Part shown: one piece after another, positions 2,427 to 7,334 of the stretch | How the letters are laid out: every line of letters begins with the position of its first letter | How positions within the stretch are numbered: the stretch's first letter is position 1 | Assembly (NCBI GenBank): GCA_019245455.1 | Contig: JAFARM010000331.1 | Location: forward strand, 1-7,334 | From: Sphingomonadaceae bacterium | Lineage (GTDB): Bacteria; Pseudomonadota; Alphaproteobacteria; Sphingomonadales; Sphingomonadaceae | Direction of reading: 5' to 3' | DNA: 7,334 nucleotides | Notes under the pieces: generated by a model | What the model was told of the DNA's origin: nothing | Seen by the model: only the letters and a program-made list of their open reading frames with translations | Database searches by the model: none | Program-made: the position numbers and the translations under genes

Positions 2427-3518
2427 CTAAGCCGCTTTGATGAACGCCTCGACCGCGGCGGCGGCGAGGTCGTCGGTCATCTGCACCGGCGGATGCTTGC
2501 AGAAGAAGGCGCTCGCCGCGTCGATCGGTCCGCCGAGGCCCCGGTCGCGGGCGAGCTTGGCGCAGCGGACCATGTCGATCGCGACGCCGGCCGAGTTCGG
2601 GCTGTCCTCGACCGACAAACGGACCTCGAGGTTCATCGGCACGCCGCCGAAAAGCCGGCCCTCCAGCCGCATGAACGCGACCTTGTTGTCGTTCTGCCAG
2701 GCGACATAGTCGGACGGGCCGATGTGGATGTTCTCGTCCTCCAGCCGCGTCTCGGCGACGGCTTGGACGGCTTCGGTCTTGCTGATCTTCTTCGACTTGA
2801 GGCGGGCGCGATTGCTCATGTTGAGGAAGTCGGTGTTGCCGCCGGTATTGATCTGGTACGTCCGGTCGAGCGTCGCACCGCGCTTGGCGAACAGGTCGGT
2901 CAGCACGCGGTGGACGATCGTCGCGCCGATCTGCGCCTTGATGTCGTCGCCGACGATCGGGACGTTGGCCGCGGTGAAGCGCGCCGCCCATGCGGGATCG
3001 CTGGCGATGAACACGGGGATGTTGTTGACGAACGCCACCCCCGCGGCGAGCGCGCATTCGGCGTAGAACTCGGTCGCCTGCTGGCTGCCGACGGGGAGGT
3101 AGTTCATCATCACGTCCGTGCGCGTCTCGCGGAGCCGGCGGATCACGGCGTCGCGGTCGGGTTCGGGGTGATCGGCGACGAGGAAGGTGCGGTCGGCGGG
3201 CGCGTCGGCCATGTGCTCGGCGACCCCGTCCATCACCGGTCCCATGGCGACGACCGCGCCGGTGCGCTCGACGCGGCCGCAGAACACCGCCGTGCAGTTG
3301 GGCCGGGCGAAGATCGCGTCGGCGACGTCGCGCCCGACCTTGCGGCGGTCGACGTCCCACGCGGCGACGACGCGGATGTCGCGCGGGCGGTAGCCGCCGA
3401 TTTCGCTGTGCAGCAGCCCGGCGCGGTCGTTGGCTCCGTCGCGGTAATATTGCAGCCCCTGGACGAAGCTCGACGCGCAGTTGCCGACGCCGACCAGGGC
3501 GACGTTGATCCCGCTCAT
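2427..3518 (-). CDS. ino1: Inositol-3-phosphate (1L-myo-inositol-1-phosphate) synthase, actinobacterial type
   Basis: The enzyme converts glucose-6-phosphate to myo-inositol phosphate using bound NAD; it is cytoplasmic and the committed step of inositol synthesis. The product is 363 aa, close to the short actinobacterial and archaeal Ino1 form rather than the roughly 500-aa eukaryotic form. Visible motifs are the Rossmann loop VGVGNCASS (residues 9-17), NYLPVGSQQATEFYAE (139-154), NNIPVFIASDP (165-175), VGDDIKAQIGAT (189-200), INTGGNTDFLNM (223-234), SKKISKTEA (242-250, catalytic lysines) and VEDSPNSAGVAIDMVR (303-318). The start is set by AGGAGG at 3526-3531, 7 bases ahead. The ATG shares an ATGA with the stop of the upstream glycosidase-like gene, so translation is probably coupled. 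It is the last gene of a three-gene leftward operon. No inositol monophosphatase gene is in the window. Confidence 0.95.
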   Translation of the reverse strand: MSGINVALVGVGNCASSFVQGLQYYRDGANDRAGLLHSEIGGYRPRDIRVVAAWDVDRRKVGRDVADAIFARPNCTAVFCGRVERTGAVVAMGPVMDGVAEHMADAPADRTFLVADHPEPDRDAVIRRLRETRTDVMMNYLPVGSQQATEFYAECALAAGVAFVNNIPVFIASDPAWAARFTAANVPIVGDDIKAQIGATIVHRVLTDLFAKRGATLDRTYQINTGGNTDFLNMSNRARLKSKKISKTEAVQAVAETRLEDENIHIGPSDYVAWQNDNKVAFMRLEGRLFGGVPMNLEVRLSVEDSPNSAGVAIDMVRCAKLARDRGLGGPIDAASAFFCKHPPVQMTDDLAAAAVEAFIKAA

Positions 3519-4459
3519 GCCGCAGCCTCCTGCTGGACCGCTTGGGGCAGCCACACCGCGCGAGCGGCGGAGGGCGGCGCATAGCGGTCGATCATCCACG
3601 CGCAGAAGTCGGCGAACGCCTGCGGCTCGACGGCCGGGCTGGTGTGGTGCGGCGCGAGGCCCAAGTGCTGCGGCGTGAAGCAGAAGGTGACGGTCACGTC
3701 GAACTCGGCGAGCGCCTCCATCTGCCGGTCGAACCAGTCGAGTGCGCCGTCGCGAAAGCTGTCCGCCCAGCTGAGGCCGGTGCGGAGCTTCTTCACGCCG
3801 AGGTCGCGCATGATCCGCACCGCGTCATCGAGCCGGGGATCGTGGAAGTGGAACCACTGCATCAGCCCCATCCGGTCGGCGACGCGGGCATAGTCGGCGA
3901 GCGCCGGCTTTGGCGTGCCGTCCTCGCGGATCAGCCCCATGTAGAAGTGGCGGTAGTAGCTCGACCCCTCCGCCTCGCGGTGGCGCGTCTCCGCCCCCCA
4001 TGCCATCGGCAGGTCGAACAGGCTGTACCAGTAGATGCGTGGGGTCCGCCCGATCAGCAGCTCGGCGGTGCGATTGAGGCCGAAGACCTGCACCTCCTCC
4101 GCGCCGAAGCTGCCGACGCCGACTTCGGTGACCCACACCGGCTTGGTCGTCACCGCCTCGATCTCGGCGATCTTGTCGGGCCAGGCGTGGATCGGCCACA
4201 GGTTCCAGTCGAGCGGGAAGCCGTGGACGGCGACGGCGTCGACGTGCGCCAGCGCGCCGTGACCCTCGATGCGCTTCAGCCAGTGCGGGTCGATCGGGCT
4301 CATGCCGCCGAGCACGCGCGTCACCGCCGGGTTGACGGCGCGGATGGCGCTGCCGGCGCGGATCACGGTATCGGCATAGATCGCCCAGTCGGGATCGAGC
4401 GCGGGGTCCCAGTGGCTCTTGTTGTTGGGCTCGTTCCAGATCATCGCCGCTTCGATCAT
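3515..4459 (-). CDS. Glycoside-hydrolase-like (clan A / beta-xylosidase-like) protein, apparently circularly permuted
   Basis: The 314-aa product has retaining-glycosidase hallmarks: IWNEPN at residues 7-12 with candidate acid/base Glu10, and VWVTEVGVG at 108-116 with candidate nucleophile Glu112. In between are VLGG (49-52) and VDAVAVHGFP (73-82), followed by IYWYSLFDL (142-150). This order matches beta-4 to beta-8 of a GH39/GH5-like TIM barrel. After the GTPKPAL segment (181-187), residues 200-293 look like beta-1 to beta-3: a LGVKKLRTGLSW strand (220-231), WFDRQMEALAEFDVTVTFCF (242-261) and AFADFCAWMIDRYAP (281-295). Those normally precede WNEP. No signal peptide is seen, so it is probably cytoplasmic, and a synthetic or sugar-modifying role is possible. 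The start at 4459 has AAGGGA (4465-4470) ahead and an ATGA overlap with the methyltransferase stop. Its 3' end overlaps ino1 the same way. Substrate is unknown. Confidence 0.8.
   Translation of the reverse strand: MIEAAMIWNEPNNKSHWDPALDPDWAIYADTVIRAGSAIRAVNPAVTRVLGGMSPIDPHWLKRIEGHGALAHVDAVAVHGFPLDWNLWPIHAWPDKIAEIEAVTTKPVWVTEVGVGSFGAEEVQVFGLNRTAELLIGRTPRIYWYSLFDLPMAWGAETRHREAEGSSYYRHFYMGLIREDGTPKPALADYARVADRMGLMQWFHFHDPRLDDAVRIMRDLGVKKLRTGLSWADSFRDGALDWFDRQMEALAEFDVTVTFCFTPQHLGLAPHHTSPAVEPQAFADFCAWMIDRYAPPSAARAVWLPQAVQQEAAA
3526..3531 (-). promoter_or_regulatory. Strong ribosome binding site of ino1 inside the upstream gene
   Basis: The minus strand reads AGGAGG, a full consensus Shine-Dalgarno, 7 bases before the ino1 ATG. 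It lies within the last codons of the glycosidase-like gene. Its strength together with the ATGA overlap suggests Ino1 is translated at least as well as the genes before it. Confidence 0.85.
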
Positions 4460-5268
4460 TGCGGTCCCTTCGCTGGATAGACCGCCGCCGGGCCGTATTC
4501 CGCGAACGGCACCGGCGCGACGCGGCAGAGATAGACGTCGCCCTCGGCGGTATCCTCGACGGTGAAGCCCGCCGCGCGGAGCATTGCGCGGGTGCCCGCC
4601 GGGTTGGGTGCCCACCAGTTCGACCAGTCGCCGGCGAAGCGGTGCTCGATGAAGTGCATCCGGGGGTAGCGCGGATCGGCGAAATAGGCGGGCGGCTCGA
4701 TCGTGCCCGGCAGGTAGAACGGGTGGTCGTGCGGCACGTCGATCTCGTCGCCCGCACCCTGCTGCAGCGTCTGGAACAGCATCAGGTTTCCCGCCACGTG
4801 CTCGCGGATCAGGTCCAAGGCGAGCAGCGGGTGGCGCAGGTGGTAGAACACGCCCATGAAGACGACGAGGTCGAAGCGTTCGCCGAGCGCTGCCACATCG
4901 TACACCGACAGGGAAGCGAACTCGACCTCGCCGCCCCAGCCGAGCGCGTCCGCCGCCAGCCGCGCCTGTGCGAGGTAGCGGGGATCGCTGTCGATGCCGA
5001 GGACGCGCGCGGCCCCACGCCGCTTCATCTCGAGCGCGTAGAAGCCGGCGTTGCAGCCGATGTCGAGAACGCTCACCCCCGTCACGTCGGGCAGGGCGGC
5101 GGCGAAGCGGGCGAACTTCTCGCGCGGATAATCGCCGAGGAAATGGTCGGGAGCGGTCGCAACGCCGCCCAGATCAATGTTGTGGAACCACGGCCCGAGC
5201 GCCTCGATCCGCGCGCGGAGCGCGTCGCTGCCGTCAACGTCGGCGATGCGTGCAGCGGACCCGATCAA
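4456..5268 (-). CDS. CmoB-like SAM-dependent methyltransferase (possibly TIGR04290 family)
   Basis: From the proposed TTG start the product is 270 aa. The class I methyltransferase fold is clear: motif I VLDIGCNAGF (67-76), acidic loop GIDSDPRYL (91-99), and FMGVFYHLRHPLLAL (137-151), which resembles the tRNA-modifying CmoB subgroup. The N-terminal FHNIDLGG (28-35) and the LGDYPREKF stretch (44-52) mark a specific subfamily; I believe it is the one named TIGR04290, from memory only. It probably methylates a small molecule or glycan intermediate rather than tRNA, because its neighbours are sugar and inositol enzymes. It is the first gene of the leftward operon and overlaps the glycosidase-like gene by ATGA. 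The start is uncertain. TTG 5268 has GGGAAGGG close upstream; the only in-frame ATG, at 5430, would run into the divergent gene and add 54 low-quality residues. Confidence 0.85.
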   Translation of the reverse strand: MIGSAARIADVDGSDALRARIEALGPWFHNIDLGGVATAPDHFLGDYPREKFARFAAALPDVTGVSVLDIGCNAGFYALEMKRRGAARVLGIDSDPRYLAQARLAADALGWGGEVEFASLSVYDVAALGERFDLVVFMGVFYHLRHPLLALDLIREHVAGNLMLFQTLQQGAGDEIDVPHDHPFYLPGTIEPPAYFADPRYPRMHFIEHRFAGDWSNWWAPNPAGTRAMLRAAGFTVEDTAEGDVYLCRVAPVPFAEYGPAAVYPAKGPQ

Positions 5269-5408: not shown

Positions 5409-6281
5409 ATGAGCGTGCGCATGGCGGCATGGACAGCGGCGATGCGGGCGGGGCGCTATGCCGACGCCTGGGACCTTGCGGCGCGGACGCTCGCCGAGCG
5501 CGATCCCGCCACGCGCGACGATCCGCGCGTCGACTATCACCGTCGCTGGGTGTGGGACGGGCGGCCGCTGGCGGGGCGCGAGGTGCTGGTCCGCTGCTAT
5601 CACGGGCTTGGCGACACGATCATGTTCGCGCGCTTCCTGCCGGCGCTGATGGAGCTTGCCACGTCGGTCACGGTGGAGGTGCAGCCGCGGCTGATCGACC
5701 TGATGGTGGGGGTCGCAGCGGGTGCGCGGCTGGTGCCGTTCGATGTCGCGCGGCCGCTGCCGCCGGCCGTCGATGTCGGCATCACCGAGCTCGACTTCGC
5801 CCTGCGCCTGCCGCCGGCGGCCGCGCCGCCACCCTATCTCGCCGCCGCGCCCGCCGATCTTCCCGCCGGAACGGTGGCGCTGTGCTACGGCGCGGGCGAC
5901 TGGGACGGCGATCGCTCGCTGCCGCCCGCGCTGCTCGAACCATTGTGCCGGTTGCGGCCCTGCGTCACGCTGATGCCCGAACCGACGGCGCTGCCGGTGC
6001 TCAACCCGGGCGGCTGCCCGTTCGACATGGCGGCGACGGCGGCGCTGGTGGCCGGCGCTGGCCTCGTCGTCACCGTCGACACGATGATCGCCCATCTCGC
6101 CGGCGCGCTGGGGGTGCCGACGTGGCTGCTGCTGAAGGCCGAGCCCGACTGGCGCTGGCCGCTGGCGGGGGCGGACAGCGACTGGTATCCGGCGATGCGC
6201 CTCTACCACCAGCCGTCGCCCGGCGACTGGGCGGGCGCGGTCGCCGCCGTCACCCGCGACCTTCTGGAGCTGCGCCGATGA
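5409..6281 (+). CDS. Glycosyltransferase family 9 / heptosyltransferase-like protein
   Basis: The 290-aa product has CYHGLGDTIMFARFLPAL at residues 63-80, the GLGD-type donor-site loop of GT9-like enzymes. The C-terminal TVDTMIAHLAGALGVPTWLLL (222-242) is the nucleotide-sugar-binding half. The end, KAEPDWRWPL then SDWYPAMRLYHQ (243-252, 257-268), matches the last segment of TPR-linked GT9-like proteins. The first 40 residues (RAGRYADAWDLAARTL) look like a single TPR-type helix pair, so the protein is a short version of TPR-glycosyltransferase fusions. Probable role: transfer of a sugar in surface-polysaccharide or glycolipid assembly at the cytoplasmic face. No membrane segment is obvious. 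ATG 5409 is chosen with a weak GGGA ahead; ATG 5421 is also possible. The stop overlaps the next start by ATGA. Substrate unknown. Confidence 0.8.
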   Translation: MSVRMAAWTAAMRAGRYADAWDLAARTLAERDPATRDDPRVDYHRRWVWDGRPLAGREVLVRCYHGLGDTIMFARFLPALMELATSVTVEVQPRLIDLMVGVAAGARLVPFDVARPLPPAVDVGITELDFALRLPPAAAPPPYLAAAPADLPAGTVALCYGAGDWDGDRSLPPALLEPLCRLRPCVTLMPEPTALPVLNPGGCPFDMAATAALVAGAGLVVTVDTMIAHLAGALGVPTWLLLKAEPDWRWPLAGADSDWYPAMRLYHQPSPGDWAGAVAAVTRDLLELRR

Positions 6282-6685
6282 CCCCCCTGCCGATGCCGAT
6301 GGTCCCGGTCAGCTGGGGCGAGCTGATCGACAAGGTGACCATCCTGGAGATCAAGCGCGCCCGCATCGCCCGGCCGGAAGCGCGGGCCAATGTCGAAGCC
6401 GAGTACCGTGCGCTCAGCGCCATCGCCGCTGCCGCGCTCGACCTGCCCGGCGTGCCGCCGCTCGCCGACGCGCTGCGGGCGGTCAACGCGGCGCTGTGGG
6501 ACATCGAGGACGCGATCCGGGAGGAGGAAGCCGCTGGCCGCTTCGGCCCCGAGTTCATCCGCCTGGCGCGCGCCGTCTACACCACCAACGACGAGCGGGC
6601 GGCGATCAAGCGGCGGATCAACGACCGGCTCGGTTCGGCGCTGGTCGAGGAAAAGTCCTACGCCGGGATCACGGCCGCGCGTTGA
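6278..6685 (+). CDS. Small conserved protein, DUF6165 type
   Basis: This 135-aa soluble protein has no known function. It begins with VPVSWGELIDKVTILEIKRARI (residues 9-30) and contains LWDIEDAIREEEA (73-85), FIRLARAVYTTNDERAAIKRRIN (93-115) and a final LVEEKSY (122-128). This is the pattern I recall for DUF6165, a family often next to glycosyltransferase genes. It is predicted mostly helical and rich in charged residues, with no membrane segment or enzyme motif. The start ATG shares an ATGA with the stop of the glycosyltransferase-like gene, so the two are very likely co-translated and may work together. Its 3' end overlaps the convergent histidine phosphatase gene by 17 bp. The family name is from memory; the reading frame itself is secure. 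Confidence 0.85.
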   Translation: MTPLPMPMVPVSWGELIDKVTILEIKRARIARPEARANVEAEYRALSAIAAAALDLPGVPPLADALRAVNAALWDIEDAIREEEAAGRFGPEFIRLARAVYTTNDERAAIKRRINDRLGSALVEEKSYAGITAAR

Positions 6686-7244
6686 GGCCGACGAGGCGCG
6701 CGCCGCCGTCCCACAGCTCGATCGTCGTCAGCGACGCGGGGTCGCAGTCGAAGGCGAAGACCCGGTCATAGCCGAGGCCCAGCACGTCGGCGACGACGCC
6801 GCGGATGATGTCGGCGTGGCTGACGAACAGCGTCGGCCCGGCGCCTGCCCGCCGGATCGCGCCCCACGCGCGCGCCGTCGCCGCCGCCATCGTCTCGCCC
6901 GTTGGCGTCGCAGCGGTCGCGCGTGCCGTGTTCCACGCCTGCCACGCGGGATCGTTGGCGAGGTCGGCAAAACTGCGCCCGCTCCAGCCGCCGAAGTCGA
7001 TCTCGTCGAGACCATCGTCGATCGTTACCGTCAACCCGTGCCTGTCGGCGACGATCCCCGCCGTCTGCGTCGCGCGGTGCCGGGGGCTGCTGACGACCGC
7101 GGCGAGCGGCACGGCGGCAAGGCGGGCGGCAAGGCGCGTGGCCTGCTCGACGCCCTCCTCGTCGAGCCCGATCGCCGACCGGCCGCTCAGCACCCGCCCC
7201 ACCTCGGCATGGCGTGCATGGCGGGCAAGGAAGACGGTGCTCAC
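6669..7244 (-). CDS. Histidine phosphatase family protein (phosphoglycerate-mutase-like)
   Basis: Members remove phosphate from small molecules or proteins through a phosphohistidine intermediate. The 191-aa product shows ARHAR at residues 7-11 with nucleophile His9 and Arg8 (RHA rather than the commoner RHG, a frequent variant). It also has VVSSPRHRATQTA (50-62), LDEIDFGGWSG (79-89) with candidate proton donor Glu81, PTGETM (114-119) and LFVSHADIIRG (139-149) with the second catalytic His143. This pattern resembles alpha-ribazole phosphatase/CobC-like and broad-specificity phosphatases; no cobalamin gene is nearby, so the substrate is open. The GTG at 7244 places the RHA motif at the usual residue 8-10. 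A TTG at 7307 would add 21 atypical residues. The ribosome binding site is weak (GGA). It is convergent with the DUF6165-type gene and overlaps it by 17 bp. Confidence 0.9.
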   Translation of the reverse strand: MSTVFLARHARHAEVGRVLSGRSAIGLDEEGVEQATRLAARLAAVPLAAVVSSPRHRATQTAGIVADRHGLTVTIDDGLDEIDFGGWSGRSFADLANDPAWQAWNTARATAATPTGETMAAATARAWGAIRRAGAGPTLFVSHADIIRGVVADVLGLGYDRVFAFDCDPASLTTIELWDGGARLVGLNARP

Positions 7245-7334
7245 GGGCAATCCATCGGCATGGAAGGGCAACCGATTCGGGCCGCCAACCGTTCCGCATC
7301 CGAACAAAATGACATTCCCGCGACGGAACGACGG
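7245..7334. other. Upstream region of the histidine phosphatase, window edge
   Basis: These 90 bases are less GC-rich than the genes and probably hold the phosphatase promoter. The minus strand has GGAAC, 16 bases, CGGTT (7295 to 7270), a weak match to an alphaproteobacterial general-stress (EcfG) promoter. A rightward frame opens at ATG 7309 and runs off the edge after eight codons without a good ribosome binding site; a divergent gene there cannot be judged. Confidence 0.35.

Follow-up and report, generated by a model that had tools for sequence, protein, structure and literature searches.

The window analysed here is a stretch of 7,334 nucleotides from a Sphingomonadaceae bacterium (assembly GCA_019245455.1, contig JAFARM010000331.1), and its minus strand carries a gene for a 314-residue protein of the glycosidase type. 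The original prediction, made from the letters alone, had proposed that this protein is a naturally circularly permuted barrel of glycoside hydrolase (GH) clan GH-A. The open reading frame (ORF) is real, with WNEP beginning at residue 8, and the protein consists of two homologous halves in swapped order relative to normal-order barrels. The gene and its parts are as follows.

3515 to 4459, minus strand: circularly permuted glycosidase-type (beta/alpha)8 protein of 314 amino acids (MIEAAMIWNEP...), in the order beta4-beta8, beta1-beta3.
3875 to 4459, minus strand: residues 1-195, beta4 to beta8/alpha8, the second half in normal-order relatives.
3578 to 3868, minus strand: residues 198-294, beta1 to beta3/alpha3, the first half in normal-order relatives (80.4 bits, profile positions 1-99).
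4430 to 4432, minus strand: codon of E10 (WNEPN), predicted acid/base from conservation and alignment with PslG.
4124 to 4126, minus strand: codon of E112 (VTEVG), predicted nucleophile from conservation and alignment with PslG.
4456 to 4459, minus strand: ATGA overlap of the methyltransferase stop and the glycosidase start, read from the sequence.
3515 to 3518, minus strand: ATGA overlap of the glycosidase stop and the inositol-3-phosphate synthase start, read from the sequence.

At an E-value of 1, PF11790 (Glyco_hydro_cc) is the one Pfam family listed for the protein. It scores 29.3 bits, above its gathering cutoff of 21, and is matched only at positions 67-186 of 237, not as a whole profile in order; no NCBIfam family is listed at the same threshold. 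A genome search returned a normal-order counterpart (G265, L010), whose single ORF encodes both halves in the usual order together with a fused NAD epimerase. We built a hidden Markov model (HMM) from 66 normal-order barrels, those among 121 proteins (P0123-P0243) that cover the whole query domain. Against this HMM, residues 5-186 of the native protein match profile positions 105-281 with 137.1 bits, and residues 198-294 match positions 1-99 with 80.4 bits; the two matches are in swapped order and do not overlap on the profile. The best of 200 shuffled proteins reached 7.2 bits. When all 314 rotations of the protein were scored, the best single match peaked at rotations 195-197 with 212.8 bits and was lower on either side. 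The native chain thus gives two swapped partial matches and the rearranged chain one contiguous match, which supports the proposed permutation. Profile-profile comparison aligned 179 columns between the native permuted family and the normal-order family, and among the native order and eight rotations, rotation 197 was best, with 283 columns and a score of 491 versus 313 (the rotated alignments exclude residues after 300). P0239, a normal-order protein of 313 amino acids, matches genomes G441 and G265 in one piece and all 12 permuted genomes compared as two swapped pieces, 33-44% identical. The motifs LRTGxSWAD, LGGMSPxDPxW and HGFP are common to the matching halves of the two families.

The nearest solved relative of the permuted family profile is PslG from Pseudomonas aeruginosa (PDB 4zn2, 5bx9, 9g17; E 4e-7). 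PslG aligns to the normal-order profile in one stretch and to the permuted profile as swapped pieces, and has no end-to-end homology with the permuted protein; a PDB search with the single protein also finds PslG in two swapped pieces (E 0.07, 15.2 and 3.1 bits). Sequential structural alignment with PslG covers only residues 1-195 of the permuted model (to 223 with one entry), as against 281 residues of the normal-order model. Normal-order relatives and PslG show the usual clan order in these comparisons, as the original prediction implied, and because PslG and other clan GH-A enzymes serve as the outgroup, the normal order is taken as ancestral. These data also bear on the possibility that the swapped alignments reflect only the eightfold pseudo-symmetry of TIM barrels, so that any rotation would align about equally well. 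Against this, the sequence scores peak at a single rotation, the two halves align each with its own counterpart and have motifs in common with it, and PslG covers fewer residues of the permuted model than of the normal-order one. The rotation scan and the profile-profile optimum make a symmetry artefact unlikely; we reject this explanation, leaving it a very slim chance.

We surveyed 84,980 species with a single genome for each; of 497 candidate stretches, 473 encode a relative, and 80 of the 473 were kept for locus analysis. A single copy of the beta1-beta3 half is present in the window and in every one of the 80 loci. It always shares an ORF with the beta4-beta8 half and lies downstream of it, in line with the claim of one barrel rather than two. 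The beta4-beta8 half has one real-scoring copy; second matches appear in 30 loci and lie below 0 bits in the ten printed. Two protein searches scored 8000 proteins, and the order was read in the 120 listed of each. The swapped order is shared by the homologues, with a distance of 218-219 from WNEPN to RTGLSW in 121 of 121 proteins (the window protein and 120 listed ones), and L102, a relative at 62% identity, keeps it as well.

These loci allow us to weigh whether the protein is instead a fragment, which lost an N-terminal beta1-beta3 part by a wrong start, a frameshift or an assembly error and ends in an unrelated domain. The glycosidase frame in the window is indeed open far upstream, for 552 codons from stop to stop, and the nearest longer start would give 366 amino acids. 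However, the gene limits match the neighbours exactly, because both ends lie in 4-base ATGA overlaps. A start codon followed by A (xTGA) stands at the glycosidase start in all 81 sequences (80 loci and the window), and the frame ending in that TGA is open for at least 200 codons in 70 of the 80 loci. In 15 of the 81 sequences the 25 codons that precede WNEPN include an in-frame stop, in one of them directly before the start. The sole beta1-beta3 match in the 552-codon open frame is the downstream one; the original prediction correctly saw no barrel half upstream but placed the methyltransferase in the same frame, whereas it is read in another frame with a 4-base overlap. The 120 listed permuted relatives are all 299-337 amino acids long, and none of the relatives examined begins with a beta1-beta3 part in the normal N-terminal place that is missing from the window protein. 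A wrong start or frameshift is ruled out by the swapped order in 80 of 80 loci, a separate C-terminal domain is rejected on the predicted single-barrel model described below, and the fragment explanation keeps a vanishingly small probability.

Structure prediction gives the permuted chain as a single closed (beta/alpha)8 barrel of the normal kind with eight strands (predicted local distance difference test score, pLDDT, 89.2; predicted template modelling score, pTM, 0.87), in which residues 200-295 form barrel strands and helices and not a separate domain. In the model, beta1 is a short strand at 198-200 (GLMQW), beta2 is 224-230, beta3 is 254-260, alpha3 is the helix 279-293, beta4 is the strand 2-7 with E10 after it, and beta7 is the strand 108-113 with E112 at its end. 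The segments LRTGLSW (225-231), VTVTFCF (255-261) and DFCAWMIDRYAP (284-295), which had been read as beta1 to beta3, do exist, but they correspond to beta2, beta3 and alpha3; the predicted beta1, GLMQW, had not been named. The new termini had been placed in the beta3/beta4 loop next to the active site. They fall between beta3 and beta4, more precisely between alpha3 and beta4, but would lie on the face away from the active site, because they sit at the start of strand 2-7 and E10 lies past its other end. We note that the loop of residues 156-167 (window ~3959-3994) holds many invariant residues (TRHxEAEGS) and is perhaps an active-site lid.

In clan GH-A, the acid/base Glu, preceded by Asn, follows beta4 and the nucleophile Glu follows beta7. 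E10 and E112 are predicted to occupy these places at the ends of beta4 and beta7, with strands counted by homology, while the clan's sequence order from beta1 to beta8 is replaced by beta4-8, beta1-3. E10 aligns with the WNEP Glu of PslG and E112 with its STEWG Glu; one study reports that PslG E165 and E276 are needed for activity (PMC9075953). E10, E112 and the Asn preceding the catalytic Glu are invariant in all 135 aligned permuted rows, drawn from 241 permuted proteins (P0002-P0122, P0244-P0363). The normal-order alignment (34 of the 120 listed) keeps the nucleophile Glu in all 34 rows and the acid/base Glu in 31; in the other three (P0178, P0184, P0192) WNKP replaces WNEP, with Lys at the acid/base position and the nucleophile kept. 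A barrel without catalysis, acting as a binding or scaffold subunit, would agree with this loss in three rows and with the covalent fusion of the counterpart to an epimerase, but the invariance of both catalytic Glu residues and the preceding Asn in the permuted rows makes it very unlikely.

Further carriers come from plasmid records: Sinorhizobium, Rhizobium, Roseomonas, Paracoccus, Azospirillum and Bradyrhizobium. Genome searches covered 299, 385 and 398 partly identical genomes. The permuted order was found in 18 genomes and the normal order in seven (G265, G312, G327, G441, G444, G537 and G382, all shown in that order), with no genome holding both at comparable score; weak matches in G155, G037 and G114 and a second one in G553 (71.8 bits) are normal-order or partial relatives of another kind. 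In an unrooted tree of 90 chosen rows (20 permuted, 70 normal) made by a quick method, a single branch separates the 20 permuted rows from all the others. The permutation presumably arose by tandem duplication followed by trimming, in which the old ends would have been joined near residue 197 and the new ends opened between alpha3 and beta4. An intermediate with a tandem duplication was not seen, though no search was aimed at one.

The neighbours of the permuted gene in the window are the following.

4456 to 5250, minus strand: TIGR04290 family methyltransferase, start not established (335.4 bits, cutoff 300).
2427 to 3518, minus strand: inositol-3-phosphate synthase-like gene (PF01658, E 2e-36; TIGR03450, 444 bits, under the cutoff of 638).
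6669 to 7307, minus strand: histidine phosphatase, a member of the same conserved cluster elsewhere (PF00300, E 4e-43).
5409 to 6281, plus strand: GT9-like protein between phosphatase and methyltransferase (PF01075, 21.9 bits, just below the cutoff of 22).
6278 to 6685, plus strand: DUF6165 protein, paired with the GT9-like gene (PF19662, 40.6 bits, cutoff 27).

In Sphingobium, Sinorhizobium meliloti (pSymB), Azospirillum and Bradyrhizobium, the permuted gene is accompanied by four consecutive glycosyltransferases, by one or two NAD epimerases, a histidine phosphatase, a TIGR04290 methyltransferase and an inositol-3-phosphate synthase. A UDP-glucuronic acid decarboxylase family protein is present in three of these four clusters, and a zinc dehydrogenase with a Gfo/Idh oxidoreductase in two. 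In the window's own genome, contig C378 carries a second-epimerase orthologue (66%) with another epimerase immediately upstream of it, and also the first part of a transferase (75% over 95 residues). We counted neighbours in 99 neighbourhoods (80 of the 473 loci plus 19 more that differ in length; L003 and L096 come from one genome); the counts are lower bounds because the loci are selected and partly of unequal length. The methyltransferase is present in at least 95, the phosphatase in 77, the zinc dehydrogenase in 70, the epimerases in 69 and 68, a GT4 transferase in 67, a GT9-like gene in at least 28, mostly beside the methyltransferase, and DUF6165 in at least 24. The best family matches of the cluster, all under their cutoffs, are scyllo-inosose dehydrogenase, inositol 2-dehydrogenase and the MshA inositol-phosphate glycosyltransferase, and they point to cyclitols. 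No polysaccharide exporter is annotated in the cluster stretches read, and TIGR04290 is not mentioned in the literature searched.

Several further features were observed in these clusters. In 36 of the loci L015-L094, which have both the glycosidase and the zinc dehydrogenase gene, no plus-strand inositol-phosphate synthase was found between them, and it may sit elsewhere; the five most compact of these loci have 24-50 bases between the two genes. A TIGR04295 B12-binding radical SAM protein lies between epimerase and transferases in L117, L118, L147 and L148, and in these species it may perhaps C-methylate or rearrange a sugar. The clusters of L116, L115 and L117 are near manganese catalase or DUF1003 genes, which hints at a stress-linked use. 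The pattern GGAAC-N15-18-CGTT, which we take to be of the general-stress promoter type, occurs in 9 of 63 divergent regions between epimerase and phosphatase versus 0.35 expected from shuffles, and is absent from the window. In the literature searched, the matches listed on the stress regulon (including PMC8877191) and on such clusters show nothing of this cluster. At the left end of the window, the final part of an ORF (1-351) presumably resembles the formate dehydrogenase accessory protein FdhD. Palindromic intergenic repeats of the CCCCGCGAACGCGGGG and CTCTCCCGC...GCGGGAGAG types are visible by eye at 300-420 and 2265-2430.

The two epimerases and the four transferases are found again in Rhizobium etli, in Tistrella and in a Geminicoccaceae strain, where the second epimerase carries an N-terminal normal-order barrel; no free barrel copy is annotated in the stretch read. 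Xanthomonas sacchari is alike by annotation, its match being in two pieces and beginning before the annotated start. The fused barrel, annotated as CDP-paratose 2-epimerase or NAD-dependent epimerase, resembles the permuted protein in having a homologous barrel, both catalytic motifs and mostly the same neighbours, and differs in its order (beta1-beta8) and in being a domain of a ~680-residue fusion instead of a free protein of 314. One may ask whether the permuted gene is a recent excision of the barrel domain from a fusion in the same type of cluster. The clusters of S. meliloti and R. etli agree gene by gene, with 59-77% identity between ten R. etli genes and those of S. meliloti that correspond to them, and the free epimerase of S. 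meliloti starts where the fused R. etli barrel ends. In the unrooted quick tree, however, the fused barrels lie deep among the normal-order rows, away from the attachment of the permuted clade, and a recent excision is therefore quite unlikely; an older one would still be compatible with the data, because many other normal-order rows are epimerase fusions too by Pfam annotation.

Rhizobium sp. CB3090 carries both forms in one cluster. Its plasmid pCB3090_1 (L159) has a complete-looking cluster with a fused barrel at 11932-13917 (69% to R. etli), and ~15 kb away a permuted gene at 28568-29452 (82% to S. meliloti) beside the synthase and phosphatase. It is the one record seen with both barrel forms in one cluster, and it rules out that the two never co-occur; replacement of the free permuted gene by the fused barrel is the common picture and, because of CB3090, not the only one.

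Taken together, the protein is probably a permuted glycosidase of the clan GH-A type that closes into one barrel, likely works by retention through E10 and E112, and acts on the glycan of its own cluster. With E10 as acid/base and E112 as nucleophile, judging from the conserved residues, it would be a retaining beta-glycosidase or transglycosidase. It would act inside the cell, because the chain starts directly with beta4 and so has no signal peptide. We suggest that it serves for trimming or transfer while a glycan begun on an inositol is assembled, because the cluster has an inositol-phosphate synthase, an MshA-like glycosyltransferase, cyclitol-dehydrogenase-like enzymes and three more glycosyltransferases, and also because a UDP-glucuronate-decarboxylase-like enzyme and a methyltransferase are present and no exporter is annotated in the stretches read. 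A joint biosynthetic role is supported by the fusion of the normal-order counterpart to an epimerase. Relatives are already in databases under names such as beta-xylosidase or glycosyl hydrolase, and a catabolic beta-xylosidase that frees xylose from scavenged oligosaccharides would agree with these annotations and with the weak profile similarity to PDB beta-xylosidases (6uqj, E 0.11; also seen with the normal-order profile). We consider it unlikely, given the lack of a signal peptide, the fusion of the counterpart to an NAD epimerase in related clusters, and neighbours that are glycosyltransferases, NAD epimerases, a methyltransferase and an inositol-phosphate synthase.

Several observations weigh against our main reading, a permuted glycosidase barrel that acts on the glycan of its own cluster. 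The matches that suggest inositol are under their family cutoffs, and the inositol-phosphate synthase is counted in at least 44 of the 99 neighbourhoods. Foldseek ranks other barrels first for the permuted model (best E 2.8e-4, a reductase), with glycosidases (GH10, mannanase, glucuronidase) first listed at rank 15 and several of them aligned in part; the 50 structural matches listed include no GH39 or GH5 entry. The alignment behind the model is shallow (effective number of sequences, Neff, 1.8), the conserved loop 156-167 has a pLDDT below 50, the permuted clade sits on a long stem (1.7), and no activity or solved structure of the clade was found. Lys replaces the acid/base Glu in 3 of the 34 normal-order rows, so the wider family may include proteins other than ordinary hydrolases. 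The co-occurrence in CB3090 also means that the fused and permuted barrels may do different steps of the pathway: there the permuted gene is beside synthase and phosphatase and the fusion is among the transferases, and the fusion-only R. etli stretch has neither an inositol-phosphate synthase nor a phosphatase. The two forms are mostly exclusive across the 18 permuted and seven normal-order genomes, however, and just one of 149 plasmid records had two places, so that different steps are a real possibility, one that we would still bet against.

GH70 glucansucrases and MalS are alpha-glucan enzymes of another clan than GH-A, transaldolase is a TIM barrel, and the beta-glucosidases among natural permutants are probably those of family GH3. 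GH70 glucansucrases and MalS are reported to be, like the permuted protein, natural circular permutants with a barrel catalytic domain (PMC9732880, PMC10223318); in the comparison with GH70/GH13, PF11790 was the one Pfam family listed for the permuted protein. Natural or proposed permutation is also described for transaldolases and for thiaminase I versus phosphonopyruvate hydrolase, which are TIM barrels but not glycosidases, and the same source names beta-glucanases and beta-glucosidases as natural permutants, without stating which beta-glucosidases; the Fibrobacter beta-glucanase is a jellyroll, unlike the barrel of the window (PMC2395249). No natural clan GH-A permutant is among the matches listed in the literature searched, which includes few subscription papers and leaves the beta-glucosidases of PMC2395249 unspecified. 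GH39 beta-xylosidases and GH1 enzymes have the normal order and marginal sequence similarity to the permuted protein, and the PDB beta-xylosidases, used for the GH39 comparison, give weak local matches only. PslG is like the permuted protein in its catalytic Glu pair and in being a glycosidase encoded within a polysaccharide-making cluster; it differs in its normal order, its larger size and its location, mainly at the inner membrane with some in the periplasm (PMC9075953).

We tentatively propose, at somewhat less than an even chance, that this is the first natural permuted family of clan GH-A, founded once and now present in hundreds of genomes, which performs the same step on an inositol-linked glycan as the epimerase-fused normal-order barrel does elsewhere. 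If true, one catalytic barrel with one reaction would exist in two wirings, permuted when free and normal-order when fused. With the permuted form, its normal-order counterpart and both clusters available, side by side in one plasmid, natural rather than engineered relatives could be used to test how chain order influences folding, stability and catalysis. The finding also concerns a family labelled 'beta-xylosidase' that Pfam recognises through only half a profile, and it flags a widely conserved, uncharacterised sugar pathway in Sphingomonas, rhizobia, Azospirillum and Roseomonas.

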